This document shows, in pieces, positions 23,306 through 37,193 of a stretch of DNA of 52,839 nucleotides. The stretch comes from Bacteroidota bacterium (GTDB lineage Bacteria; Bacteroidota; Ignavibacteria; Ignavibacteriales; Ignavibacteriaceae): the NCBI GenBank assembly GCA_021824145.1, contig JAKALM010000010.1, positions 1-52,839 of the forward strand. The letters run 5' to 3'. The translations under genes and the position numbers were made by a program. The notes beneath the pieces were generated by a model, which worked only from the letters and a program-made list of their open reading frames with translations, was not told where the DNA came from and did no database searches. Every line of letters begins with the position of its first letter. Position 1 is the first letter of the stretch.

Positions 23306-24544
23306 ATGAAATCTTATTTAATTTTCTTCATTACAATTTTTACAATTTCATTTTCTTATTCTCAATCTCCAAAAGTTAAAACTGGAATTGAAGTATTGAG
23401 AGATCAGAATTTTAAAATCTTAAATGGTAAACGAGTAGGATTAATTACTAATCCAACCGGCGTTGATTCAAAGCTTCAATCTACTGTTGATATACTTTTT
23501 CATGCAAAAAACTTAAAACTAGTTGCATTATTCGGTCCCGAGCATGGCGTTAGAGGTGATTATTCCGCTGGTGCTTATGTTGAATCTTATACCGACAAAG
23601 AAACTGGTTTACCAGTCTATTCACTTTATGGAAAAACAAGTAAACCAAATAAAGAAATGTTAAAAAATATCGATGTTCTTGTTTATGATATTCAAGATAT
23701 CGGCTGCCGTTCCTATACATATATTAGTACAATGGGAAAAGCAATGGAAGCTGCTGCTGAAAATAATATCCCATTTGTTGTACTTGATCGTCCAAATCCG
23801 TTAGGAGGCAATTTAGTTGAAGGCAATTTAGTTGAAGATGGTTTTTCATCATTCGTAAGTCAGTTTAAAATTCCTTATGTGTACGGTTTAACTTGCGGTG
23901 AACTTGCCAAATTACTTAATGGAGAAGGTATGTTAAAGGATGGCGAAAAATGTAATCTTACAGTAGTTCCAATGATTGGATGGAAAAGAAACATGAGTTT
24001 TGAAGAAACCAGACTGCCTTGGGTTTTAACTTCTCCTCATGTGCCGCATTTTGATACTCCTGAATATTACGTTGCTAGTGGAATGATGGGCGAACTTGGA
24101 ACTCTATCAGAAGGCGTTGGATACACACTTCCCTTCCAGATTTTTGCTGCTGAATGGATAAATGCAGATTCGTTAGCTATCAATATGAATTCTCTTGGAC
24201 TTAAAGGTGTAATCTTTCGTCCAATAAATTTTAATCCATTTTATGGAAGAGACAAAGGGAAAGAACTTCATGGCGTAGAAATTTATTTTACAGATTACCG
24301 TAAAGTTAATTTGATGAGTCTTCAGTTTTTATTCATGCAAGTTCAAACGGAAATGTATCCGGATAAAAATCCTTTTAAACTTGCAGACCAATCAAGAATT
24401 AAATTTTTCGATAAAGTCTGTGGCACTTCTAAAGTTCGTGAATTATTTTCTAAGAACATGAAATACGATGATGTTAAAGATTTTTTAAATAAAGATATAA
24501 AAAGCTTCAAAGAATTATCGAAAAAATATTATTTATATCACTAA
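23306..24544 (+). CDS. namZ: NamZ-like exo-beta-N-acetylmuramidase (DUF1343)
   Basis: A 412-aa secreted protein with a signal peptide (residues 1-19, ...SFSYSQS). The DUF1343 signatures are clear: GKRVGLITNPTGVD at about 38-51, ALFGPEHGVRGDYSAG, VYDIQDIGCRSYTYISTM and LDRPNPLGG. Characterised members cleave terminal N-acetylmuramic acid from peptidoglycan fragments in the periplasm, feeding cell-wall recycling. The sequence fits that role, but I cannot identify the substrate-defining residues. The ATG is preceded by an AAAGGGA site. It is convergent with, and only 4 bases from, the Ig-like lipoprotein gene. Confidence 0.88.
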   Translation: MKSYLIFFITIFTISFSYSQSPKVKTGIEVLRDQNFKILNGKRVGLITNPTGVDSKLQSTVDILFHAKNLKLVALFGPEHGVRGDYSAGAYVESYTDKETGLPVYSLYGKTSKPNKEMLKNIDVLVYDIQDIGCRSYTYISTMGKAMEAAAENNIPFVVLDRPNPLGGNLVEGNLVEDGFSSFVSQFKIPYVYGLTCGELAKLLNGEGMLKDGEKCNLTVVPMIGWKRNMSFEETRLPWVLTSPHVPHFDTPEYYVASGMMGELGTLSEGVGYTLPFQIFAAEWINADSLAINMNSLGLKGVIFRPINFNPFYGRDKGKELHGVEIYFTDYRKVNLMSLQFLFMQVQTEMYPDKNPFKLADQSRIKFFDKVCGTSKVRELFSKNMKYDDVKDFLNKDIKSFKELSKKYYLYH

Positions 24545-24548
24545 GAAA

Positions 24549-26225
24549 TCATTTAAATCTAAAATTTAGATTTGTCTGTATCCACCGAGCGCGAAGAGTT
24601 AAAGTATCGGGATAAAAAGTAAATTGTTCAGAAGGTTTGAATGGGAAAGGTCTTCCATAAGTATAACTTTTACTGCTGTCGGAATCGTAAAAGCCCCATA
24701 GCAAATATTTCCCTGGCTGTATTCTTTCAAAATTATATTTATTTGGATTCTTAATTTCCTGCTGATATACAATTTTTTCAACATCAGTCCCTTGCAATAC
24801 GATATAGGGATTTTTATTCAACTTGCAATTTTCTAATTCGCCTGAAATGCCTGTAAAGTCTAATCCATTTATAGTTTTAAATTTATATTGATACACAGAA
24901 TCGTAAGCGTTTTCGGCAGCATCTTTGAATCCATTTAAATTTAGTTTAATTATATAATCTGTATTTGTTTGTAATTTTTGCTTAGGAATAATATTGAACG
25001 AAGCATCGTCATTAAAGTAGATATTAAAATTAATTTCTTTATTTGATGTATCCGTAAAAGCGATATTTTTTTTTGCAGAAGTTGAATCGAATGCATCATT
25101 GAAATAAAATTTAAATGTTGCATTCAAAAAATCTACATTTGTTGAATTGTTAGCAGGAATAGTTCTTATAATAATTGGTTTAGTTGTGTCAGATTTTTCA
25201 TTTAATGTAATTTGCACAAAGTCATTCGTAAATAAATTACCAAATTTATCTTTAATAGAATCAGCCATTAAAAATGCTTCATCTGTAACTGGTAAACTTT
25301 CATTTGTTACCAAAACAAGTTCTGTCGCTTTTGTATTTCCTTTAAATGCATAAATTGGTTTGTAACTTTTTTTAGTAGTTGAATCAATAATTAAAAAATT
25401 TTTAGATCGAATTATTGACTCTTCAAATTCTTTTGTAAAGTTTACTAGAATATGATATTTGTCTGTCATAGAAGCACTTACAAGCCGTGGTTTGACTGTG
25501 TCCAGTTTTGTTAAAAAGAAATTTAGACCTTCGAATAATGTATCTTTGTCCGTTAATTTAACATCATTAACTGGCATACCAATTTCGTCTTGATCGGGCT
25601 GGTAAATTAAATCTTTATATTGATCTCGAACTGCAAAAACCCTATAAATATTAGATGCTAATCCTTGCAGCTTATATGCACCATCGCTGCCAGTTTGAGA
25701 AATATAATCTGGTTTTCTTTTCATCGGATTAATAGCACTATCGCCAACTGTGTATGCAAAAATCATAATTCCATTTGGTTTGTCATCATAAACTTTACCT
25801 TCAATTTCTCCCTTATCAATTTTATTACCAGTTGAAAAAGTTAAAGAAAAAGCTTGAGACATTTTGTTATGATTATTAAAATCTTGAACGTCTGTTCCAA
25901 TTGTGAAAACATAGGTAACATTTTTTTTCAACTGGTGAGGAAAATAAATCTTAACAGATGTTCCAGTCCAATCGAACTGCATATCACCTTCAATTGCCGG
26001 AGAAACAAACATTGCATCTTTCAAAGTTCTTTTTTCTATATATTTTGAAAAATCAAATTCAATATGATCATCAGAAAAATTTGTAGTTCCATTTAAAGGA
26101 TATGTATCAACAATTTTTGGTGGTACAAAATCAATTGCACCTCCACCAGGCGGCAGTTGATTAGCGCAGTTTGACAAAAATAGTCCTAAAAAAAAGATTA
26201 AGATATTTTTATATTTCTTTATCAA
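24549..26225 (-). CDS. Ig-like domain (Big_5) lipoprotein
   Basis: A 558-aa envelope lipoprotein: hydrophobic N-terminus, lipobox LSNC at Cys20, then CANQLPPGGGAIDFVPPKIV. It contains at least two bacterial Ig-like Big_5/SbsA-type modules. The first begins PPKIVDTYPLNGTTNF at about residue 36 and another TTKPIIIRTIPANNSTNVDF at about 340. A carboxypeptidase-regulatory-like segment (GEIEGKVYDDKPNGI) lies between them. This architecture is widespread in Bacteroidota surface proteins and indicates a structural or binding function; no catalytic motif is visible. It is converging with namZ. Confidence 0.8.
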   Translation of the reverse strand: MIKKYKNILIFFLGLFLSNCANQLPPGGGAIDFVPPKIVDTYPLNGTTNFSDDHIEFDFSKYIEKRTLKDAMFVSPAIEGDMQFDWTGTSVKIYFPHQLKKNVTYVFTIGTDVQDFNNHNKMSQAFSLTFSTGNKIDKGEIEGKVYDDKPNGIMIFAYTVGDSAINPMKRKPDYISQTGSDGAYKLQGLASNIYRVFAVRDQYKDLIYQPDQDEIGMPVNDVKLTDKDTLFEGLNFFLTKLDTVKPRLVSASMTDKYHILVNFTKEFEESIIRSKNFLIIDSTTKKSYKPIYAFKGNTKATELVLVTNESLPVTDEAFLMADSIKDKFGNLFTNDFVQITLNEKSDTTKPIIIRTIPANNSTNVDFLNATFKFYFNDAFDSTSAKKNIAFTDTSNKEINFNIYFNDDASFNIIPKQKLQTNTDYIIKLNLNGFKDAAENAYDSVYQYKFKTINGLDFTGISGELENCKLNKNPYIVLQGTDVEKIVYQQEIKNPNKYNFERIQPGKYLLWGFYDSDSSKSYTYGRPFPFKPSEQFTFYPDTLTLRARWIQTNLNFRFK

Positions 26226-26292
26226 TATATGAAATGAATATTTTTAAATTTTTTATACAAAAAATATTTTCTTTAATAAGATATAATCGCTA

Positions 26293-27690
26293 TTATTTTT
26301 TTAATGAATCAAGATGCTTTCGATATATATTTGCATTTTTCAAATGATCTTGAAAATTTGTTGAAAAATGATGACTACCATTACCATTTGCAACAAAATA
26401 TAAAAAATTATTTTTATCAGGGTATAGTGCAGCTAAAATTGCAGATTTATCTGGATTATTTATCGGTCCAGGCGGCAATCCATCATGTTTATATGTGTTA
26501 TAAGGTGACTTAATTTGTAGATCTTTAAAATTAAGTCTTCCCCACTTTCCTTTTTTTGCAAATTCAATTGTGGGATCTGCTTGCAACTTCATTCCTTGCT
26601 TTAGTCTGTTATAATATACTCTTGCAATAATCGGCATCTCAGATTTATTTTTTGTCTCACCTTCTACAATTGATGCAATTGTAAGTATCTGCGGAATTGA
26701 ATAGCCAATTTTTTCTGCGCGTTGTCTAAGTGAATCTGACATAAAGTTTTTAATTCCACTATACAAAATTCTTAACGCTTCATAAGCTGAGCTTCTTTCA
26801 TAAATGTAATAATGTTTCGGAAGAATATAGCCAAGCATTGAAGGTGAATCAATTCCAAGTGAATCTAAAAAAGTTTTATTTTGACTTAACGAAAGAATTT
26901 TAGTAGAATCTATAAACGCATCACGTTGAAGAGTAGAAGCAACAGATTCTAATGTAGAACCTGGTATTATTGTTACTAACTTTAAAAGATCACCCTTGCC
27001 ATGTATAAAATAATCGAGCAAATCTAAATAGCTTAAACCATTTGGTAGCGAATACCTAGCTGCTTTAATACTTTTTTCAGCACCATAAATAAATGCTGCT
27101 ATTTTAAAATTTGTTTTGCTTGGAATAATTCCTTTTGAATATAAATCATTTGTAAGTTCAGAAAGCGTTTCACCTAATTTTATTTCTACCTTAATGGGCG
27201 CTGGTGCAGAATAATAATTAGCCGTAAAAAATGTAGAGTACAAAATTCCTAGAATTATTATAAAAAAAAGAATGACAATAAATAACTCTTTCTTTGACAG
27301 TAATTTGCTAAAACCTTTTTTAATATTTTTACTTGATATTTTAAATATTTTACCTTTATCCAATTCTTCCCTCTGAATAGCTCTTGATTCATCTAAAATT
27401 CTCTCATAAATTCTGAGCAATGCTTCTTTACTTAATGGCTCTTCTGTTAATGATGAAATTCTTTGACTAATTTCTTTCTCTCTTTTAGGATTGTAAGTAG
27501 GAAGATTCATTGATTGTTTTACTCTTCCAATTAAAACTGAATGCAGCGTTCGTTTCACAAGCAGTTTTACTATTTGCTTATCAATATCGTCTATTCCATC
27601 ACGAAGTTTATTAAGAATTTCATTCCTTTCTTCATTGCTAAGTGAATTTAATTCATTCTCAATTTTATTAATTAAATTTTCCATCAACAA
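26293..27690 (-). CDS. mltG: Chorismate mutase (AroQ)-MltG fusion protein
   Basis: A 465-aa protein joining two unrelated domains. Residues about 27-110 form an AroQ-class chorismate mutase. The active-site pattern lines up with E. coli numbering as R30 (R11), R47 (R28), K58 (K39), R70/E71 (R51/E52), S102 (S84) and Q106 (Q88), with near-identical spacing. A single membrane helix follows (about 135-152). The periplasmic MltG/YceG domain then includes IASIVEGET with catalytic Glu343, YYNRLKQGMKLQADPT, and the SPYNTY..GLPPGPI segment. MltG is the endolytic transglycosylase that ends glycan-strand growth. The mutase would lie in the cytosol. The frame is uninterrupted across the junction. A stand-alone prephenate dehydratase lies 2 kb away. 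Confidence 0.9.
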   Translation of the reverse strand: MLMENLINKIENELNSLSNEERNEILNKLRDGIDDIDKQIVKLLVKRTLHSVLIGRVKQSMNLPTYNPKREKEISQRISSLTEEPLSKEALLRIYERILDESRAIQREELDKGKIFKISSKNIKKGFSKLLSKKELFIVILFFIIILGILYSTFFTANYYSAPAPIKVEIKLGETLSELTNDLYSKGIIPSKTNFKIAAFIYGAEKSIKAARYSLPNGLSYLDLLDYFIHGKGDLLKLVTIIPGSTLESVASTLQRDAFIDSTKILSLSQNKTFLDSLGIDSPSMLGYILPKHYYIYERSSAYEALRILYSGIKNFMSDSLRQRAEKIGYSIPQILTIASIVEGETKNKSEMPIIARVYYNRLKQGMKLQADPTIEFAKKGKWGRLNFKDLQIKSPYNTYKHDGLPPGPINNPDKSAILAALYPDKNNFLYFVANGNGSHHFSTNFQDHLKNANIYRKHLDSLKK

Positions 27691-27754
27691 ATTTAATGTG
27701 AAATATAAACGTTATTTTTTATAAAAAATTTTTCAAACTAAAATAAGGAAATTG

Positions 27755-28768
27755 TTAGGCAAAATGTTCTTTTGCTAAACTTGGAAAAGGACTAAAATTC
27801 AATCTCGATTCATAGCCTAATTCGTAGATTCGTAATCCTCTAAAAGCAATCATAGCAGCGTTATCTCCGCAAAATTCCATTCGTGGGACAATAACTTTTT
27901 TATTAAACTTTTTTCCTAATTCAATTAATGAATTTCTTAAAGGTTTGTTTGCAGCAACCCCGCCAACAAGTGAAATTGATTTTACTTCAAAATTATTTAA
28001 TGCTTTTTCGGTGTTTTTAACTAAAGCTTTTATAACAGCATTTTGAAATGAAGCAGCAATGTCTGCCAAGTCTTTATCATGAATATTTTTTTGATCAGAA
28101 TAATTATGTTGAACATATCTTAACACAGCAGTTTTTAATCCACTAAATGAAAAATTGAATGTGTCTTTTAACTCTGCAATTGGGAAATTAATTTTATTAG
28201 GATCTCCATTTTCTGAAACTTTTTGGATTTTTGGTCCGCCAGGATATCCAAGCCCTAATAATTTAGAAACTTTATCGAATGCTTCTCCGGCAGCATCATC
28301 AACAGTTGTTCCTAATTTATAAATTTTCGAAAAGCTTTCTACTAAAAGCAAAAGAGTGTGACCGCCGGAAACAACTAATGCCAAATAAGGGAATTCTGGT
28401 TTTTCTTCCATCAAAAATCCAGAAAAAATATGGCCTTCAATATGATTGACAGCTACAAATGGTTTCTTAACAGCATAAGCTAGTCCTTTTGCAAATGTTA
28501 AACCTACTAATAAGGCACCAATCAATCCTGGGCCAGCTGTAGAGCAGATCAAATCTATTTCATTAAGTTTTAAATCAGATTTTTGAAGTGCATCTTTTAT
28601 TAAGGGAATAATTATTTGTAAATGAGCACGGCTAGATAATTCCGGAACAACTCCGCCATAGTTTGAATGGAAATCTTGTGATGAAATTAAATTAGCTTTT
28701 AATTTTTCATCAGATATTATTGCGACGGAAGTTTCATCGCAAGAGCTTTCTATACCTAAAACATTCAT
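27755..28768 (-). CDS. tsaD: tRNA N6-adenosine threonylcarbamoyltransferase TsaD
   Basis: The catalytic ASKHA-fold subunit that transfers the threonylcarbamoyl group to A37 of ANN-decoding tRNAs. The 337-aa protein begins LGIESSCDETSVAI. It has the metal-binding pair His109/His113 in NHIEGHIFSG, a VSGGHT nucleotide loop, DDAAGEAFDKVSKLLGLGYPGGP, and GGVAANKPLR with a further metal Asp in the FCGDNAAMIA segment. All are family hallmarks. Its first codon overlaps the proline dehydrogenase stop by 4 bases, giving a coupled pair, although the functions are unrelated. TsaB/C/E are not in the window. Confidence 0.96.
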   Translation of the reverse strand: MNVLGIESSCDETSVAIISDEKLKANLISSQDFHSNYGGVVPELSSRAHLQIIIPLIKDALQKSDLKLNEIDLICSTAGPGLIGALLVGLTFAKGLAYAVKKPFVAVNHIEGHIFSGFLMEEKPEFPYLALVVSGGHTLLLLVESFSKIYKLGTTVDDAAGEAFDKVSKLLGLGYPGGPKIQKVSENGDPNKINFPIAELKDTFNFSFSGLKTAVLRYVQHNYSDQKNIHDKDLADIAASFQNAVIKALVKNTEKALNNFEVKSISLVGGVAANKPLRNSLIELGKKFNKKVIVPRMEFCGDNAAMIAFRGLRIYELGYESRLNFSPFPSLAKEHFA

Positions 28769-29667
28769 CTTTTTAATTTAAATAAACTCTTAAAAATATA
28801 ACCAGCTATTTGTGGATTTTCTTTTAATCTTCTTACGGAATATGCATACCAATCTTTACCAAACGGAACATAAATCCGAATTTTATATCCGTCTAAATTA
28901 ATTTTATCTCTAAGTTCTTCTCTTACGCCTAATAGCATTTGGAATTCAAATTTGTCTTTTGTCAGATTAAGTTCATTTATAAGTTTTTTAGCGTTATTAA
29001 TTAAATATTCATCATGCGTTGCAATGCCCACATAATTTCCTGCTTTCAGCATTGCCTCTAATATTTTTAAATAATTATCTCTAATTACTTGCTTGTCTTT
29101 GTATGCAATATTTGGAGACTCAATATAAATTCCTTTGCATAAACGATAATTTGTCCCAATCTTGTTTAACAAAATTACATCATCGTATGTTCTCTTTAAG
29201 TATGCTTGAACAACCACACCAACATTATCATAATTTTCTCTTAATTTTTTATACAAATTGAAAGTCTTATCAGTAAATGGAGAATCTTCCATATCAATGC
29301 GAACAAAGTTGTTATTTTCTTTCGCTTTTTCTACTAGTTCAGAAATTTGCATTAAAGCAAAATTTTCATCAATTGCTAATCCCATTTGTGTTGGTTTTAT
29401 TGACAAGTTAGCTTTTAATTTTTTTTGCTCAATAATGTCTAAAACTTCAAGGGCTTTTTGCTTTGCAGAAATTGCTTCATTTTTGTTTCTTACAGATTCA
29501 CCTAAAACATCAATGGTTGCATAAATTCCTTTATCATTTAATTTTCTTACTAATTCAACTGCACTGTCCAATGTTTCGCCGGCAATATATCTTTTTGAGA
29601 AAAAGCCGACCATAGTTTTTGGCATTAACTGAACAATCGCTACAATAATTTTGTTAAAGAACGACAC
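28765..29667 (-). CDS. putA: Proline dehydrogenase
   Basis: A 300-aa monofunctional FAD-dependent TIM-barrel enzyme oxidising proline to pyrroline-5-carboxylate and passing electrons to the quinone pool. Visible family segments are GIYATIDVLGES, a SIKPTQMGL strand, RIDMEDS, VVQAYLKRTYDD, RLCKGIYIE, a ATHDEYLI strand, FQMLLGVREELR, and the C-terminal substrate-binding YSVRRLKENP with its paired arginines. It lacks a P5C-dehydrogenase domain, so that step is encoded elsewhere. It is the first gene of a coupled pair with tsaD. It is tagged putA by function; the monofunctional gene is also called fadM or prodh. Confidence 0.9.
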   Translation of the reverse strand: MSFFNKIIVAIVQLMPKTMVGFFSKRYIAGETLDSAVELVRKLNDKGIYATIDVLGESVRNKNEAISAKQKALEVLDIIEQKKLKANLSIKPTQMGLAIDENFALMQISELVEKAKENNNFVRIDMEDSPFTDKTFNLYKKLRENYDNVGVVVQAYLKRTYDDVILLNKIGTNYRLCKGIYIESPNIAYKDKQVIRDNYLKILEAMLKAGNYVGIATHDEYLINNAKKLINELNLTKDKFEFQMLLGVREELRDKINLDGYKIRIYVPFGKDWYAYSVRRLKENPQIAGYIFKSLFKLKR

Positions 29668-29762
29668 AGTATTACTCCTATCTATAGTTTTCCTCTAATT
29701 ATGTTTTTTATTGACTTTAATATTTTTCTTTTAAATTTAAATATGCATTTAGTAAATGTGAT

Positions 29763-30596
29763 TCAACTCTTATAAGTTTTGCCAACTTCATAAGTACCGA
29801 ACTCTTTTATACTTAATGATATTTCTGCTAAATGATTTAATGCTTTCTTAATTTTATCGTCTGAAAGGCTTCCTTTCATATCAAGATAAAAATTATATTC
29901 AAATGGCTTATGTGGAATTGGTCTAGACTCAATTTTCATAAGATCAATATCTCTTAAAGCAAAAACGCTTAATGCTCTAAATAAAGCACCAGGCATACTC
30001 TTAAGTTCAAAACAAATGGATGTTTTAGGGTTTTTAAATTCTTTTTTTATTTTTTTTCTGCTTACAGCTAAAAACCTTGTAAAATTCTCTTGATTATTTT
30101 GGATATTACTTTTCAAGATTTTCAATTTATAAATATCTGCCGCTTCCCTGCTTGCAATAGCGGCAACTGGCATTTCTTTGTTATTCAATAATAATAAGGC
30201 AGAGCCGGCTGTATCATATGCTGGAATAATTTCTGCATTCTTCAATGATTTTAAAAAAATAGAACACTGCCCTAAAGCTTGAGGATGTGAATATACTTTT
30301 TTGATTTCTTTCAATTCATAGTTTTTATTTGCAAGCAAGTGATGATTAATTTGAAGATTCAATTCGCCGACAATTGTTAATGAATATTGAAGTAGTAAAT
30401 CATATGACTCAAAAACACTTCCATACAATGAATTTTCAATTGGTATGACACCATAATCAACTAGATTATTTTTTACTTTTGTAAATACTTCTTCAAAAGA
30501 AAATGAGGGAGAAATTAAAATATTTTCGTTAAACATTTTTTTGGAAGCAGTTTCACTGTAAGCACCACGTTCACCTTGGAAGGCAATTTTAAGCAT
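29763..30596 (-). CDS. pheA: Prephenate dehydratase
   Basis: Converts prephenate to phenylpyruvate in phenylalanine synthesis. The 277-aa protein is the monofunctional type: a periplasmic-binding-like catalytic domain (residues 1-180) with the catalytic TRF at 173-175 after NNQENF, then an ACT domain. The ACT domain carries GALFRALSVFALRDIDL (203-219) and ESRP (223-226), which usually bind phenylalanine for feedback inhibition. There is no N-terminal chorismate mutase, unlike the E. coli P-protein. A chorismate mutase domain is instead fused to MltG about 2 kb downstream. The start overlaps coaE by 8 bases. Confidence 0.95.
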   Translation of the reverse strand: MLKIAFQGERGAYSETASKKMFNENILISPSFSFEEVFTKVKNNLVDYGVIPIENSLYGSVFESYDLLLQYSLTIVGELNLQINHHLLANKNYELKEIKKVYSHPQALGQCSIFLKSLKNAEIIPAYDTAGSALLLLNNKEMPVAAIASREAADIYKLKILKSNIQNNQENFTRFLAVSRKKIKKEFKNPKTSICFELKSMPGALFRALSVFALRDIDLMKIESRPIPHKPFEYNFYLDMKGSLSDDKIKKALNHLAEISLSIKEFGTYEVGKTYKS

Positions 30597-31209
30597 TGGT
30601 AGTTAAAAGTCCTTTAAGAATATTAATTAATAGAAGAGCTTTATTCTTTAAATCATCTATTCCATTATTGTTTTCAAATACAAAATCAGCACGCTTCATT
30701 TTTTCTGAATCAAGCATTTGATTCTCATTTCTCTTAATAAATTGATCTTTAGAAAAATTGCCATCCTTAGTTTTTCTTTCCATCCTCAACTCTTCGCTAG
30801 CTGTCACTAAAACAACATAATCAAAAAGATTTTCCATATTAGCTTCAAAAATAAGAGCAGCTTCTGCAGCCACAATATCATAACTTTGCAAAATTTCTTC
30901 CGCTAAGATATTAACTTTTTTTATAACTTTTGGGTGAATAATAGAATTTATTTTTTGAACGTTTTGAGGAATTGAAAAAACTTTTTCTGCAATGAAAGTT
31001 TTATTTGCTTTGCCATTCACAAAAGATTCTTTTCCGAACGCCTTTATAATTTTTTCTTTTATTTGATGATCTGTCTCTAATAAATTTTTAGCCTCTTCAT
31101 CTACATTAATAACTGGTATTCCATTCTGATTTAAAAAATTACAAAACACAGATTTACCAGATCCAATACTTCCGGTAACTGCTATTTTTATTTTTCTTTT
31201 TTTGGTCAT
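30589..31209 (-). CDS. coaE: Dephospho-CoA kinase
   Basis: Performs the last step of coenzyme A synthesis, phosphorylating the 3'-OH of dephospho-CoA. The 206-aa P-loop kinase shows the Walker A TGSIGSGKS at residues 12-20, INVDEEAKNLL for substrate binding, HPKV and VAAEAALIFEA, and LVTASEELRMERKTKDGNFSKDQFIKRNENQ as the lid region. The N-terminal Met is followed by a Lys-rich start. It sits between rny (46 bases upstream on the same strand, with a hairpin in the gap) and pheA (8-base overlap). Coupling to pheA looks organisational rather than functional. Confidence 0.95.
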   Translation of the reverse strand: MTKKRKIKIAVTGSIGSGKSVFCNFLNQNGIPVINVDEEAKNLLETDHQIKEKIIKAFGKESFVNGKANKTFIAEKVFSIPQNVQKINSIIHPKVIKKVNILAEEILQSYDIVAAEAALIFEANMENLFDYVVLVTASEELRMERKTKDGNFSKDQFIKRNENQMLDSEKMKRADFVFENNNGIDDLKNKALLLINILKGLLTTNA

Positions 31210-31229
31210 AATAATTAGTGGTTGGAATT

Positions 31230-31251
31230 AGCAGAGTATTTCTACTCTGCT
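31230..31251 (-). terminator. Hairpin between rny and coaE
   Basis: A perfect 9-bp stem (AGCAGAGTA / TACTCTGCT) with a 4-base loop lies right after the rny stop. No long T run follows on the minus strand, so it may be a weak terminator or an mRNA-stabilising hairpin. Confidence 0.5.
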
Positions 31252-31255
31252 TAAA

Positions 31256-32818
31256 TTATCTTGCGAAGCTAATTTTTCTGACTTCACGAATTACTGTAAC
31301 TTTAATTTGGCCTGGATATTCCATTTCATTTTCTATTTTTGCAGCTATATCATGCGAAAGTTTATCTGCAACTAGATCATCTATTTTATCATGCTCAACA
31401 ACAACTCTAACTTCTCTTCCAGCTTGAATTGCGTATGTTTTAGCAACACCTTCAAAAGATTTTGCCAAAGCTTCAAGATTTTCTAATCGCTTAACATAAC
31501 CTTCCAATGGCTCTCTGCGAGCACCAGGCCTAGCGCCGCTTATGGCATCTGCAGCTTGAACTAATGGAGCAATCGGATGTTCCATTTCTATATCTTCGTG
31601 ATGAGATCCAACAGCATTGACTACAATTGGATGTTCTTTATATTTTTTTGTCAACTCATAACCAAGAAGTGCATGCGGACCTTCAACACTTTTATCTACT
31701 GTTTTTCCAATATCATGTAAAAGTCCTGCTCTTTTTGCAAGCATAGAATCTAATCCAACTTCAGCGGCCATAATTCCTGTAAGATAAGCAACTTCAATAC
31801 TATGCTGAAGTAAATTTTGCCCGTAACTTGAGCGGTACTTCATTCTTCCGATATGCTTAATCAACTCTTGATGCATATTGTGAAGCCCTAATTGAAGAAT
31901 AGTATTTTCGCCATCACGAATCATTTCTTCTTCTAATTCTTGCCTAACTTTTTCAACAACTTCTTCTATTCTTGCTGGATGAATTCGTCCATCAGTAATT
32001 AGTCTTTCGAGAGAAACACGAGCAACTTCTCTTCTAAATTGATCAAATGAAGAAAGAATAACTGCCTCAGGAGTATCATCGACAATTACATCAACACCAG
32101 TAGCAGCTTCAAAAGCTCTTATGTTTCTGCCTTCTTTACCAATTATTCGTCCTTTCATCTCATCATTAGTAATTTGGACAACTGAAACAGTAGTTTCGAT
32201 TGAATGATCAGCGGCAGTTCTTTGAATTGCTTGCACAATTACTTTTTGAGCTTCTTTTTTTGCATCTGATTTTGCCTGATCATGAATTTCTTTAATAACA
32301 TGTGCAACTTCAGATTTAGCAGTGTTAATCATATTTTCAATTAACATATTTTTAGCTTCTTCAGTAGATAAGCCAGAAATTTTTTCCAGCTTAGCATTTT
32401 GTTCAGCTTCCAACTTTTCAACTTCTGCTAATCTTAATTCGATGTTCTTTTTTAAGTCGTGCAGCTCTTTTTCTGCCTGCTTGTTCTCTTTCTCTTTTTT
32501 AATAACTAAGTCGAATTTCTTTTCAATGTTTTCTTCACGAACATTTAATTGTTTCTCTAAGTTGCCAATCTTTTGTCTTTTTTGATTTACTTCATTATCG
32601 AATTCAACTTTCTTTTTATACCATTCATCTTTAACCTCTAACAATTTTTCTCTCTTTATATTACTCGATTCTTTTTGTGCTTCGGCAATAATTTGTTTTG
32701 CACGTTCTTCTGCAGATGCAATACTTTTTTTACCGATCCTAGAATTGAATAACCACCCTAAATAGAAAAATAAAGCTACAAGGACTATAACCATTGGTAT
32801 TAACAATAACACATCCAT
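31256..32818 (-). CDS. rny: Ribonuclease Y
   Basis: A membrane-anchored endoribonuclease that starts bulk mRNA decay. The 520-aa protein has the full architecture: an N-terminal membrane helix (residues about 3-24), a long charged coiled coil to about 190, a KH RNA-binding domain (GRIIGKEGRNIRAFEAATGVD), and an HD domain with the metal motif HDIGK near 368 plus VGSHHEDIE downstream. The C-terminus EYPGQIKVTVIREVR is family typical. It follows the 6S RNA locus and zapA on the same strand, a gene order known to accompany 6S RNA in many bacteria for the zapA side. Confidence 0.97.
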   Translation of the reverse strand: MDVLLLIPMVIVLVALFFYLGWLFNSRIGKKSIASAEERAKQIIAEAQKESSNIKREKLLEVKDEWYKKKVEFDNEVNQKRQKIGNLEKQLNVREENIEKKFDLVIKKEKENKQAEKELHDLKKNIELRLAEVEKLEAEQNAKLEKISGLSTEEAKNMLIENMINTAKSEVAHVIKEIHDQAKSDAKKEAQKVIVQAIQRTAADHSIETTVSVVQITNDEMKGRIIGKEGRNIRAFEAATGVDVIVDDTPEAVILSSFDQFRREVARVSLERLITDGRIHPARIEEVVEKVRQELEEEMIRDGENTILQLGLHNMHQELIKHIGRMKYRSSYGQNLLQHSIEVAYLTGIMAAEVGLDSMLAKRAGLLHDIGKTVDKSVEGPHALLGYELTKKYKEHPIVVNAVGSHHEDIEMEHPIAPLVQAADAISGARPGARREPLEGYVKRLENLEALAKSFEGVAKTYAIQAGREVRVVVEHDKIDDLVADKLSHDIAAKIENEMEYPGQIKVTVIREVRKISFAR

Positions 32819-32848
32819 TTTTCCTCCAATGTAGGGATTAATTATTTT

Positions 32849-33056
32849 ACCGCTCTTGTCAGTCGCTGACTAACAAGGGGAAAAACCTCATTAAATCAGT
32901 GTGGGAATTTGCCCGAACGCTTTTTACTTCCCCTGTCCTGATTAAAAATCAGAATCCCGATATAAATCGAAATGGGGCCTGTAATAGACGCCGAAAGTCA
33001 ATTTCCCTTTGTTATGAAAGTTAGTTTTTCATTTTTAGTGGACTGACAGAGCGGTA
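32849..33056 (-). ncRNA. ssrS: 6S RNA
   Basis: A gene-free stretch of about 245 bases between zapA and rny holds a long RNA-like fold. The ends pair as a closing stem on the minus strand (ACCGCTCTGTCAGTC near 33055 with GACTGACAAGAGCGGT near 32849), giving a roughly 208-nt molecule. The interior has GC-rich paired blocks around a central region, as in 6S RNA, which mimics an open promoter and binds sigma-70 RNA polymerase. Location directly beside zapA is the classic genomic context of ssrS. I could not fold it computationally, so the exact ends are approximate. Confidence 0.75.
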
Positions 33057-33063
33057 TTATCTT

Positions 33064-33360
33064 TTAAGATGGGTCTAACATATTTGGTTCATTAAAAAGC
33101 AGCTTAATCTTTTTGATTTTGTCCGATGCCTGTATTACAAATTCTCTATTTTTATTTTTTTCTAAAAAGAGATCATAAGCAATATTTAAGCAAGCAATAA
33201 TTGCAATTGTTTGCGCCGGTTGATCAGGTAATTCTTCCTTTGTTTCTTCCATAACTTTATTAACATAAATAGCTAGCTCTTTAGCTATTTCTTCATTTTC
33301 GACAAGTAAGGAATATTCTTTATCAAATATTTTTATTTTAAGCTTCTTTTTATCCGTCAT
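33064..33360 (-). CDS. zapA: Cell division protein ZapA
   Basis: A 98-aa FtsZ-associated protein that bundles FtsZ protofilaments and stabilises the Z ring. The N-terminal beta-hairpin domain contains the family pattern KIKIFDKEYSLLVENEE...LAIYVNKVMEE (residues 7-40). A helix follows with QTIAIIACLNIAYDLFLEKN, the expected coiled-coil dimerisation segment. It sits 7 bases above the predicted 6S RNA and downstream of a small coiled-coil protein gene. ZapA beside 6S RNA is a recurrent bacterial arrangement, supporting both calls. Confidence 0.9.
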   Translation of the reverse strand: MTDKKKLKIKIFDKEYSLLVENEEIAKELAIYVNKVMEETKEELPDQPAQTIAIIACLNIAYDLFLEKNKNREFVIQASDKIKKIKLLFNEPNMLDPS

Positions 33361-33426
33361 TTATGTTTTATCCATCTAACAAACATTATTTTTAAGAACT
33401 TAAACTTTCTGCATGGTTAGTTTTTG

Positions 33427-33741
33427 CTATCCAGCAGAGAGATGATAGTCTATTTTTGATATTAAATTTTGTAATCTAATTTTTAAATTTTCCCGCTCCT
33501 TTGAATTTAATGAATTAAATAAATTAATTTCACCCTCGTTATTTTGGTTTTTAATTTCTTTTTCTACAGAAGATAATTTTTGAGTTAAATAAGTATTTTC
33601 ATTTTTTAACTGAATTAGTTGACCTTGCAAATCTGCATTTTGTTCTACAAGTTCTTGGTTTTTATGCAATAAATTTGAAATTAGTCCTTCAATTGAACTT
33701 AATTCATTTATAAGAATTTCATATTTTGTTAAATCTGCCAT
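33427..33741 (-). CDS. Small coiled-coil protein, possibly ZapB-like
   Basis: A 104-aa protein that I do not recognise as a named family. It is nearly all helical. Residues about 10-70 show heptad spacing of Leu/Ile (LISNLLHKNQELVEQNADLQ, then QLIQLKNENTYLTQKL), i.e. a coiled coil. A basic C-terminal helix follows. Its ATG directly follows the pheT stop (TAAATG), so translation is coupled, and zapA comes next. Position beside zapA and the short coiled coil suggest a ZapB-like division partner, but that is inference from context; no shared motif proves it. Confidence 0.65.
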   Translation of the reverse strand: MADLTKYEILINELSSIEGLISNLLHKNQELVEQNADLQGQLIQLKNENTYLTQKLSSVEKEIKNQNNEGEINLFNSLNSKERENLKIRLQNLISKIDYHLSAG

Positions 33742-36150
33742 TTAGGCGCCTCTGAGTATTGCACTAAAATTAGTTTTGATCTTTTCAATTAAATAATTAA
33801 AATCTTTTTCAATTTCCTCTTCGGTTAAAGTTCTTTCTTCTGAATAATACTCTAATGAAAATGCCATGCTTTTTTTATTTTTCCCTAATGTTTCGCTTTC
33901 AAAAAGATCGAATAGGTTAACTGATTTTAATAATTCTGAGCTTGATTTTTTAATAAACTTAATTACTTCTTCGTAAGTTACTGAATTATCAAATATAAAT
34001 GCAAAATCTCTAATTGATTTTGGAAACTTTAATGGTTCTAAATATTTCTTCGAATTTGCTTTTATTTTTTTAAGCTTACTTAAATCAAATTCAAAACAAA
34101 AAACATCCTGTTGAATATCAAATTGTTTAAGAACATCTTTCTTTACTTTACCTCCAACACCAATTTCTACTTTTTCATAATTTTTAGTAAAGTAAAAATC
34201 GAAAATACTATCTCCATTGTGATAATATGAATCATTTAAAACATTGTCAAGCGAAATTTTTATTAATAAACTGTTTATATATCCTTTCAAATCATAGAAA
34301 TCAAAATATTTTTCTGGAAAATTCCATGTTTTATCTTGAATTTTTCCAGTTACAATAAAAATAAGTTTTTGATTTTCTGAAAAATCTTCGAAGTTTTTTA
34401 TTTCTTTCTTTTCATTCTTAAGATTAAAAACATTTCCAATTTCAAATAATCTCAAATTCTTTTCACCAACATTAATATTTTTGGCAACTACTCCTAAAGC
34501 ACTTGGGATTAAAGAAGTCCTTAAAAATGCCATATCTAAACTTTGTGGATTTAAGATTTGAATTTTATTTCCAATAAGTGAAGCGAACTGTTCCTTTTGC
34601 AGTGGATTGTTTACCATTTCATAAAATCCAAGCGAACAAGAATAATCTCTTATAGCATCTTCAAATGCGGTTTCATCAATTTTTTCCCCAAGCGAAATTG
34701 AAATTTTCGAAATAGTTGGAATATTATCATATCCAAAAATCCTAGCAATTTCTTCAATTAAATCAATTTCACGCTCTAAATCTGGACGAAATGTTGGGAC
34801 TAAAAACCTATTTTCATTTTCAGATTCAAAAATGATTTTTAATCCAAGTTTTTTCAAAATTTGTAATATTTTTTCTTTAGGAATTTGGAATCCTAATATT
34901 TTATAAACTCGCTCAAATCTTAAAAGTACTTCCTTCTCTTTTATTTTTTCTGGATAATTATCCAATGAACCATGAGCAATTTCACCATTTCCTAAATCAG
35001 CAATTAACTGGGCAGCTCTTTCTGCGGCTAACAAAGTCGAACTTGGATCAACCCATCGTTCAAATCTATATGAAGCTTCTGTACTTAATCCCAATGCTTT
35101 AGAAGTTTTTCTAATACTTGAAGGATTAAAATGCGCACTTTCAATTAAAATATTTTTTGTTGAATTATTAATTTCAGAATTTTCGCCACCCATAACACCA
35201 GCAATAGCAACTGGTTTTTCACTATCACATATCATCAATGTGCCTTTTGGCAACTTACGTTCTTTCGAATCTAAAGTTGTAAACACTGTTTCGGTCTCAG
35301 TACTTTTTACAACTATTTTTTGTCCATTTAATTTATCAAGATCAAAAGCGTGAAGCGGCTGCCCTAATTCATACATTACAAAGTTTGTAACATCAACAAT
35401 ATTGTTAATTGGCCGCAGTCCAATTTTTGTTAATCTTTTCTTCAACCAATCAGGTGAATCTTTAACAGTAATATTCTTTACAACTTTTGCTGTATATCTT
35501 GGACAATTAATTTTATCAACAATCTCAACTGATGCAAGTTCTTTAACTTTTTTTGCCGATTCGTGCAGTGTATATTCTGGCAGGTGAAATTCTTTATTAA
35601 ATATTGAAGCTAAATCTTTTGCCACTCCAATATGTGAAAGTGCATCTGATCGGTTTGGAGTAATTGCAATTTCTAAAATAACATCGTTTAATTCTAGTTC
35701 TTTTACAATTGATTTGCCGACATTAACTTCTTCCGTAAGAACCATAATTCCAGAATGATCATTACTCAATTCAAGCTCTGCTTCGGAACAAATCATACCA
35801 AATGATTCTACACCACGAATTTTTGCTTTGTTTATTTTAAAATTCCCATTAGGAATAATTGTTCCAATTGGAGCAAAAACAATTTTCTGTCCTGTTTCAA
35901 CATTTGGTGCGCCACAAATTACTTGAAGATCTTCAGTGCCGGTATTTACAATACAAACCGATAACTTATCCGCATTAGGATGTTTCTTTTTTTCTTTTAC
36001 ATATCCAACAATAAAATCTTTATATAATTCATTCTCATCAACATAATCTTCAACTTCTAATCCGGACATAGTAAGCTTATGAACTATTTCCTGTACTGGA
36101 ATATTTTCAAGGTCAACATATTCTTTTAACCAATTCAATGAAACTTTCAA
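33742..36150 (-). CDS. pheT: Phenylalanine--tRNA ligase beta subunit
   Basis: The 802-aa beta subunit of the (alphabeta)2 PheRS. It contains an N-terminal tRNA-binding OB fold (residues about 40-150, IVGYVKEKKKHPNADKLSVC), the B3/B4 editing domain with GPM-like VVKNITVKDSP...GLRPINNIVDVTNFVMYELGQPLHAFDLDK, a B5 domain, a catalytic-like core, and a C-terminal ferredoxin-fold anticodon-binding domain starting near FPKSIRDFAFIFD at about 705. Length and domain order are complete. It lies 14 bases after pheS and is followed with no gap by the small coiled-coil gene. Confidence 0.97.
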   Translation of the reverse strand: MKVSLNWLKEYVDLENIPVQEIVHKLTMSGLEVEDYVDENELYKDFIVGYVKEKKKHPNADKLSVCIVNTGTEDLQVICGAPNVETGQKIVFAPIGTIIPNGNFKINKAKIRGVESFGMICSEAELELSNDHSGIMVLTEEVNVGKSIVKELELNDVILEIAITPNRSDALSHIGVAKDLASIFNKEFHLPEYTLHESAKKVKELASVEIVDKINCPRYTAKVVKNITVKDSPDWLKKRLTKIGLRPINNIVDVTNFVMYELGQPLHAFDLDKLNGQKIVVKSTETETVFTTLDSKERKLPKGTLMICDSEKPVAIAGVMGGENSEINNSTKNILIESAHFNPSSIRKTSKALGLSTEASYRFERWVDPSSTLLAAERAAQLIADLGNGEIAHGSLDNYPEKIKEKEVLLRFERVYKILGFQIPKEKILQILKKLGLKIIFESENENRFLVPTFRPDLEREIDLIEEIARIFGYDNIPTISKISISLGEKIDETAFEDAIRDYSCSLGFYEMVNNPLQKEQFASLIGNKIQILNPQSLDMAFLRTSLIPSALGVVAKNINVGEKNLRLFEIGNVFNLKNEKKEIKNFEDFSENQKLIFIVTGKIQDKTWNFPEKYFDFYDLKGYINSLLIKISLDNVLNDSYYHNGDSIFDFYFTKNYEKVEIGVGGKVKKDVLKQFDIQQDVFCFEFDLSKLKKIKANSKKYLEPLKFPKSIRDFAFIFDNSVTYEEVIKFIKKSSSELLKSVNLFDLFESETLGKNKKSMAFSLEYYSEERTLTEEEIEKDFNYLIEKIKTNFSAILRGA

Positions 36151-36164
36151 TTCTTATCTCCTGC

Positions 36165-37193
36165 TCAAAACTGTTTTAAGAACCTGAAATCATTATCAAA
36201 GAAAACACGAATATCATCGATTCCATATTTTAATAAAGCTGTTCTTTCAATTCCCATTCCGAAGGCATAACCGGTATATTGTTCATGATCATAATTCACA
36301 TTATCAAAAACATTCGGATCAACCATTCCACATCCAAGTATTTCTAGCCAGCCGCTATGTTTACAAACCTTACATCCTTTACCGTGGCATAAAAAACAAG
36401 TTATATCCATTTCTGCACTAGGTTCAGTAAATGGGAAAAAACTTGGACGAAATCTATATTTTAAATTCTCTCCATAAAACTGATGAGCAAATGCAACAAG
36501 TGTCCCTTTTAATTCGGCAAATGTTACATCATTATCAACATACAAACCTTCCACTTGGTGAAATACACAATAACTTCTGGAACTAATCGCCTCATTCCTA
36601 TAAACTCTTCCCGGCATAATTGCTCTAACAGGAGGTTTTGTTTTTTCCATAATTCGAATTTGCACAGGTGAAGTATGAGTTCTTAAAAGGAAATCACTGT
36701 TAATAAAAAAAGTATCCTGCATATCTCTTGCAGGATGATCAGGTGGAAAATTTAATGCACCGAAATTGTTATAATCAGATTCAAGTTCAGGTCCTTCAAT
36801 GACAGAAAAACCCAATCCTTTAAATATTGATTTAATTTCATTTAATGTTTGAATAAGTAAATGTTTACTGCCAATTGTTCGTTCAAATCCGGGCAGACTT
36901 AAATCAATTTTTTCAACTGATTCTTTTTCTAAAGAATCAATATGATCTTTTAATAAATTAAATTTTTCAGTTACTTCATTTCGGAGAGCGTTGAGGAGTT
37001 TTCCTAGAACTGGTTTTTCTTCTTTCGATGCATTTTTCAATTCATCAAAAAGCTGAGATACAAGACCATTTCTACTTAGAAATTTTAGCCTTAATTCTTC
37101 AAGTTGTTTCGTGTCTTTTACAGCTGAAATATCTTGATTGAAATGGGCAGTAATTTTCTTGATTCTTTCATCAAGCATATCTTTAATCTTCAA
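36165..37193 (-). CDS. pheS: Phenylalanine--tRNA ligase alpha subunit
   Basis: The 342-aa catalytic subunit of PheRS, a class II aminoacyl-tRNA synthetase. After an N-terminal coiled coil (residues 1-85) come motif 2 (GRVYRNEAISSRSYCVFHQVEGLYV), the FRPSFFPFTEPSAEMD segment and motif 3 (GYAFGMGIERTALLKYGIDDIR). A four-cysteine insertion, CFLCHGKGCKVCKHSGW, lies before motif 3 and could bind zinc; this occurs in other bacterial PheS. It is downstream of a hairpin that separates it from rplT and directly upstream of pheT. Confidence 0.97.
   Translation of the reverse strand: MKIKDMLDERIKKITAHFNQDISAVKDTKQLEELRLKFLSRNGLVSQLFDELKNASKEEKPVLGKLLNALRNEVTEKFNLLKDHIDSLEKESVEKIDLSLPGFERTIGSKHLLIQTLNEIKSIFKGLGFSVIEGPELESDYNNFGALNFPPDHPARDMQDTFFINSDFLLRTHTSPVQIRIMEKTKPPVRAIMPGRVYRNEAISSRSYCVFHQVEGLYVDNDVTFAELKGTLVAFAHQFYGENLKYRFRPSFFPFTEPSAEMDITCFLCHGKGCKVCKHSGWLEILGCGMVDPNVFDNVNYDHEQYTGYAFGMGIERTALLKYGIDDIRVFFDNDFRFLKQF

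Follow-up and report, generated by a model that had tools for sequence, protein, structure and literature searches.

A chorismate mutase domain joined to the transglycosylase MltG in Ignavibacteriaceae, and its relation to adjacent gene pairs

Chorismate mutase fusions and the genes beside mltG

Chorismate mutases (CMs) of the AroQ type occur in several multidomain proteins. The aroQ gene is frequently fused with other genes of the aromatic pathway, and the fusions covered in an excerpt of PMC1173090 join steps of aromatic biosynthesis; E. coli TyrA is named in the available part of PMC7481392. Fusions of AroQ with PheA, TyrA or DAHP synthase resemble the protein described here in that an AroQ domain with the same residues is joined to a second enzyme. 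However, their partners are aromatic enzymes, whereas the partner here is a cell-wall hydrolase, which lies outside aromatic metabolism and across the membrane. A further parallel is provided by Listeria and Bacillus, where CM-like domains are thought to control DAHP synthase: these also form an N-terminal CM_2 domain on another protein and keep the polar residues, but their partner is the first shikimate enzyme and hence a natural feedback target (PMC5526877, in excerpt). According to the same excerpt, catalytic and regulatory CM domains are not told apart by their conserved polar active-site residues (PMC5526877).

In E. coli, MltG has few residues before its hydrophobic N-terminus, whereas the fusion protein carries an enzyme domain of about 110 residues there. 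Both share the features of the MltG/YceG family (TIGR00247, PF02618), namely a membrane helix, the fold and a glutamate that aligns with the catalytic E. coli E218. A parallel in gene order is the pabC-mltG pair of Gammaproteobacteria, in which mltG likewise follows immediately after a chorismate-pathway gene; the gap between pabC and mltG in E. coli K-12 is 2 bases (L293, 5301-7135, plus strand). PabC is nonetheless a different enzyme with a different fold, is encoded by a separate gene and serves the folate branch, whereas CM-MltG belongs to the Phe/Tyr branch. The Pseudomonas pabC-mltG synteny is counted among possible folate-peptidoglycan connections in the accessible text of a 2025 paper (PMC11898565). 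The E. coli MltG-fold structure 2r1f is titled 'predicted aminodeoxychorismate lyase' in the PDB. Literature searches of open-licence PMC papers returned no report of a CM-MltG fusion or gene pair, and as far as these searches go it is unreported. Together, CM-mltG and the proteobacterial pabC-mltG form a testable pair, in which two unrelated chorismate-pathway enzymes are encoded directly before mltG.

The fusion gene and its surroundings

The window (the whole stretch of DNA analysed, 52,839 nucleotides of contig JAKALM010000010.1 from an Ignavibacteriaceae genome) carries a gene for both enzymes on its minus strand (Table 1). As originally predicted, one open frame of 465 codons runs uninterrupted through CM, membrane helix and MltG; plus-strand frame 1 across 26293-27690 contains many stops. 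The probable ATG start lies two codons inside the TTG, and relatives begin at the same ATG. The Pfam profile CM_2 matches at 68.1 bits (cut-off 27) over profile positions 1-80 of 80, YceG (PF02618) at 257.9 bits (cut-off 32.4) and the NCBIfam model for endolytic transglycosylase MltG (TIGR00247) at 213.9 bits (cut-off 103.4). The fusion falls under the cut-off of every NCBIfam CM model, each of which is made for a named subgroup, the best being CM_P2 (53.4 vs 69.55 bits).

Table 1. Features of the fusion gene and its neighbours in the window
Feature	Coordinates	Strand	Remarks
Big_5 (Ig-like) protein	24549..26225	-	Downstream; after mltG in most family loci read
CM-MltG fusion gene	26293..27690	-	465 codons from TTG; probable true start ATG at 27684 (463 aa)
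MltG/YceG endolytic transglycosylase domain	26329..27189	-	Residues 168-454; predicted periplasmic; Glu345 aligns with E. coli E218
Single transmembrane helix	27220..27288	-	About residues 135-157; K/R-rich stretch precedes
AroQ chorismate mutase domain (CM_2)	27370..27606	-	Residues 29-107
tsaD	27755..28768	-	Directly upstream of fusion; upstream of CM/mltG too in most class loci read
Proline dehydrogenase gene	28765..29667	-
Prephenate dehydratase (PDT + ACT)	29763..30596	-	Consumes the CM product; in the gene run of the fusion
coaE	30589..31209	-
rny (RNase Y)	31256..32818	-
pheT (Phe-tRNA synthetase beta)	33742..36150	-	Upstream
pheS (Phe-tRNA synthetase alpha)	36165..37193	-

An AlphaFold2 model built from 29 fused proteins (mean pLDDT 82, pTM 0.61; pLDDT under 50 at residues 118-126, 368-376 and 379-407) contains three CM helices (17-58, 66-77 and 86-110), the membrane helix and the MltG fold. 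In Foldseek searches, the model matched the solved MltG structures 4iiw (E 2.4e-16), 8yoa, 8yq7 and 2r1f, and, over 77-90 columns, the chorismate mutases 2d8e (E 2.3e-3, rmsd 0.9 A, TM 0.90 by target) and 1ecm (E 0.026, rmsd 1.3 A). In both the model and these matches, the N-terminal domain has the three-helix AroQ fold. The 20 residues ahead of the membrane helix include seven K/R and no D/E, and this K/R-rich side carries the CM, which is therefore predicted to be cytosolic and membrane-anchored, with MltG in the periplasm. It had been proposed that the fusion might tether or sense aromatic metabolism at sites of wall growth; this topology supports the tethering half of the proposal, while for sensing no direct evidence emerged.

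The active site of the CM domain is largely intact. Alignment to EcCM returned all eight residues as originally listed: R30, R47, K58, R70, E71, S102 and Q106 correspond to R11', R28, K39, R51, E52, S84 and Q88, making seven of eight identical, and N67 stands at the equivalent of D48 (polar active-site residues of EcCM as named in the excerpt of PMC5526877). EcCM D48 acts partly via its backbone amide and by positioning Arg11' (PMC12329711, in excerpt). In a census of 140 non-redundant mltG-linked CMs, the first five residues (R30, R47, K58, R70 and E71) are identical in all 140, while position 106 holds E in 85 proteins and Q in the other 55, among them every one of the 42 rows from the window's family. 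At position 102, S predominates (110), followed by T (24), with A, I, F or M in the remaining six. Position 67 varies freely (S 66, N 23, D 16, V 16, Q 8, T 5, M 4, A 2), so N67 is no sign of decay, and loss of the D48 equivalent was rejected as a mark of inactivity. Many linked CMs outside the window's class (L270, L271, L291, L280 and others) combine T at 102 with V at 67, a consistent variant active site. In the MltG domain, the glutamate named in the original prediction, Glu343, needs correcting: E. coli E218 aligns with Glu345, which is invariant in all 29 fused proteins, whereas Glu343 corresponds to E216, a position that some relatives fill with Q, K or D.

The fusion stands towards the end of a gene run on a single strand, which comprises thrS, pheS, pheT, rny, coaE, prephenate dehydratase, proline dehydrogenase, tsaD, CM-mltG and the Big_5 protein, with infC, rpmI, rplT and a ZapA-like gene (these four named by eye) between thrS and rny. 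Five terminator-like sites were found in 26000-34000, none of them between tsaD and the fusion; the same interval holds 28 promoter-like sites vs 39 in shuffles, and an Rfam scan of 20000-41500 returned two tRNAs. The run places Phe synthesis close to Phe-tRNA charging, with pheT and pheS (33742-37193) on the same strand as prephenate dehydratase and the CM. A gene for another peptidoglycan enzyme, the exo-beta-N-acetylmuramidase NamZ, is convergent to this run (23306-24544, plus strand), and NamZ genes also occur near mltG in several relatives.

Within the window's assembly, which is 95% complete, the fusion is the only CM_2 match, and no AroH-type CM_1 was detected. A count of other CM genes, suggested as a check on the fusion, thus leaves it as the only recognisable CM, and a redundant second CM was rejected on the same searches. 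The genome also encodes one TyrA, one prephenate dehydratase and one chorismate synthase. Since prephenate consumers are present and no other CM was found, the CM of the fusion should be catalytic, unless an unknown CM exists.

Distribution and history of the linked genes

The fusion is real and recurrent. A search for the same fusion in relatives, also suggested at the outset, found it to be common. The fusion protein was matched in 77 of 80 family genomes (in the MltG part in 76 of them), and the fused open frame is present in 21 of the 80 (two cut by contig ends), comprising 12 of the 13 genomes of the window's genus and nine across seven other genera; the thirteenth genome of that genus, G305, had no match to the fusion protein. 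Another 24 family genomes have a separate CM directly upstream of mltG, and the remainder have either no CM or one in a frame of roughly 365 or 675 aa. One frame of each size was tested, the shorter being a DAHP synthase-CM protein (L045) and the longer a four-domain CM-PDT-ACT-DAHP synthase of 672 aa (L047, 1692-3710, minus strand). In family loci read that have frames of the L047 size, prephenate dehydratase is absent from the rny-coaE run. None of the 21 fused family genomes has a second CM, vs 8 of the 24 with a separate linked CM. A CM remnant was sought at the N-terminus of MltG in one further genome (G348; L313, 3923-5248, plus strand) and rejected, its roughly 110 low-complexity residues giving no CM match above chance.

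In the class, CM_2 was found in 161 of 294 genomes. Loci were read in 111 of these, picked by score and frame length rather than at random: 25 are fused, 47 separate and adjacent, and 39 unlinked, at least one of the latter (L206) being linked but cut by a contig end. Among the loci counted as unlinked is a chorismate synthase-CM fusion with the CM at its C-terminus (L050, 2082-3428, plus strand), and L051, L204, L212, L216, L218, L219 and others from other families of the class resemble it in frame length and CM position, by appearance only.

Linkage extends well beyond the class. Phylum-wide, 346 of 395 genomes matched; the best 30 loci among these, of which 15 come from other classes, are linked without exception. 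A second set of 20 loci, sampled across families, includes 16 linked ones, one with a 452-base gap (in L284 mltG lies 2.3 kb from the CM; L282, L288 and L290 are unlinked). Outside the class, 31 of 35 genomes read, in 14 of 17 families, have the linked form, a count drawn from the better-scoring CMs of the phylum. In a sample of named loci (the best 80 of 193 found by one peptide pattern), all 60 from Bacteroidota, Ignavibacteriota, Chlorobiota, Kryptonia and Calditrichota are fused or adjacent, 58 by rule and two (L120, L128) cut by contig ends. The other 20 (17 Acidobacteriota, HR08, HR10 and Schekmanbacteria) are unlinked; in 16 of them the gene beside the CM resembles the DAHP-synthase-bearing L047 protein, and one (L134) was confirmed as DAHP synthase by Pfam. 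Each of 18 named genomes searched, 16 of them from linked groups, has exactly one CM_2. The likely origin, which the original prediction did not mention, is a CM gene immediately preceding mltG, an arrangement seen in Calditrichota as well as in many families of the phylum.

Switches between the fused and the separate state are frequent. A tree of 95 concatenated CM and MltG proteins picked from the 140, built by a quick method, requires 10 changes of state, at least six of these being forced by starred branches, and the MltG tree of the family requires eight, fusions and splits being counted alike. One genus, g46, holds both forms. Such frequent flips argue that fusion as such is not essential.

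Sequence constraint differs between genera. The CM of the window's genus is better conserved than its MltG (dN lower in 64 of 66 pairs, mean identity 77% vs 65%), dN being used for this comparison because only three pairs have unsaturated dS. In genus g9, where another CM is present or the pathway was not found, CM identity is below that of MltG in all ten pairs, and the two closest pairs have dN/dS of 0.09 and 0.12, indicating purifying selection. Given the retained active-site residues and this constraint, a decayed CM was rejected.

Function of the linked chorismate mutase

It is likely that the fusion contains the functional sole CM of its genome, anchored to the membrane through the joining of old, coupled neighbours, and is not a dedicated sensor. 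The cytosolic N-terminus would probably be a working AroQ CM that supplies prephenate to prephenate dehydratase and TyrA, while the C-terminus would act as the periplasmic endolytic transglycosylase MltG. The fusion probably arose because CM and mltG are old and usually overlapping neighbours in Calditrichota and in many families of the Bacteroidota in the wide sense, with in-frame fusion, and perhaps splitting too, happening repeatedly. Since the active site of AroQ enzymes combines residues from two chains (PMC5526877, in excerpt), the CM would pair as a dimer, and two MltG chains would then be held together. The fusion itself is probably close to neutral. With the sole detected CM placed on a wall-cutting enzyme, a committed amino-acid step would be located at the membrane, perhaps where the wall is being made.

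Retention of the linked CM follows the apparent need for it. For 72 of the 80 family genomes (eight were set aside), need was scored from a PDT or TyrA match over cut-off and from the presence of any other CM. Where the pathway is present and no other CM is, the linked CM is kept in 30 of 31 genomes, the exception being the 80% complete G296; among the remaining 41 it is kept in 15 (eight with another CM and seven without a detected pathway) and lost in 26. This association gives a Fisher p of 6e-8, a test that ignores the kinship of the genomes, and independent comparison leaves only three pairs (sign test p 1). Overall, this retention agrees with a metabolic CM.

Six genomes with a linked CM do not fit, in that neither prephenate dehydratase nor TyrA was detected: G329, G330, G332, G157, G339 and G340, which are 99%, 92%, 71%, 99%, 95% (contamination 8) and 81% complete, respectively. 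Chorismate synthase is present in five of these and absent from G339. Five of the six keep all seven checked polar residues and had no PheC-type (SBP_bac_3) proteins in the searches; the sixth, G157, is fused, has T at position 102 and has three SBP_bac_3 matches, in frames of 496 and 729 aa. The seventh genome that keeps the CM without a detected pathway, G310, is 89% complete and has a TyrA match only below cut-off. These six genomes argue against a purely metabolic reading; in them, either the CM lingers or binding of prephenate or chorismate has another use. The favoured account is also strained by the retention of the pairing over two phyla, which is more persistence than chance neighbours need.

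A possible but less convincing explanation is that the fusion is an accident of operon structure, in which the stop codon between two neighbours was lost and the halves are functionally unlinked; the CM may still work, so this overlaps with the favoured account. Overlap is the commonest state, being found in 64 of the 103 non-redundant separate pairs and measuring exactly 4 bases in 22 of the 64; the fusions are scattered over the tree with the forced changes given above, and the unrelated neighbours tsaD and the proline dehydrogenase gene travel in the same run. Against this, Calditrichota keep the CM-mltG pair with no nearby tsaD match in the seven loci read, and another chorismate-pathway gene, pabC, occupies the same place in E. 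coli and in the Pseudomonas synteny discussed above (PMC11898565, in excerpt). If there is no functional link, the locus would illustrate neatly how coupled neighbours can fuse again and again with nearly neutral effect; if there is one, amino-acid or folate supply would be connected to glycan length.

It is rather unlikely that the mltG-linked CM, fused or as a non-covalent partner, is a dimer-forming cytosolic module of MltG that responds to chorismate or prephenate and makes glycan-strand termination depend on how the shikimate pathway stands. Such coupling would explain the pairing across two phyla, the repeated fusion and the survival of a complete active site where neither prephenate dehydratase nor TyrA was detected. 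Also improbable, by a small step more so, is a regulatory role in the fused protein in particular, with the CM domain mainly binding chorismate or prephenate, or dimerizing, as a cytosolic control of MltG. CM domains that mainly regulate a fusion partner have been described (PMC5526877, in excerpt), the pairing with mltG is widespread, and three g9 genomes keep a linked CM with all seven polar residues while lacking detected PDT, TyrA and PheC-type proteins, with dN/dS of 0.12 between two of them. However, the window's genome has prephenate consumers and no other CM was found in it, loci switch between the fused and the separate form, CM_2 gave no match at all in eight family genomes whose pathway went undetected, and the linked CM is absent from 19 of the 27 genomes with another CM.

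An artefact of assembly or frameshift has next to no probability: the relatives are mostly probable metagenome assemblies, as most named records are marked MAG, but the frame is open in independent assemblies, refuting it, with 21 family genomes sharing it at nearly constant linker length, eight f10 and seven f18 genomes also having it, and the fusion recurring in Kryptonia and another family.

The eight family genomes without CM_2 or a detected pathway comprise G333, G300 and six of genus g11 (L077, L075, L306), one of which is a single contig. The g11 genomes, which gave no matches to CM_2, prephenate dehydratase or TyrA, are probable Phe/Tyr auxotrophs; mltG was detected in five of the six, and chorismate synthase is kept in all three checked.
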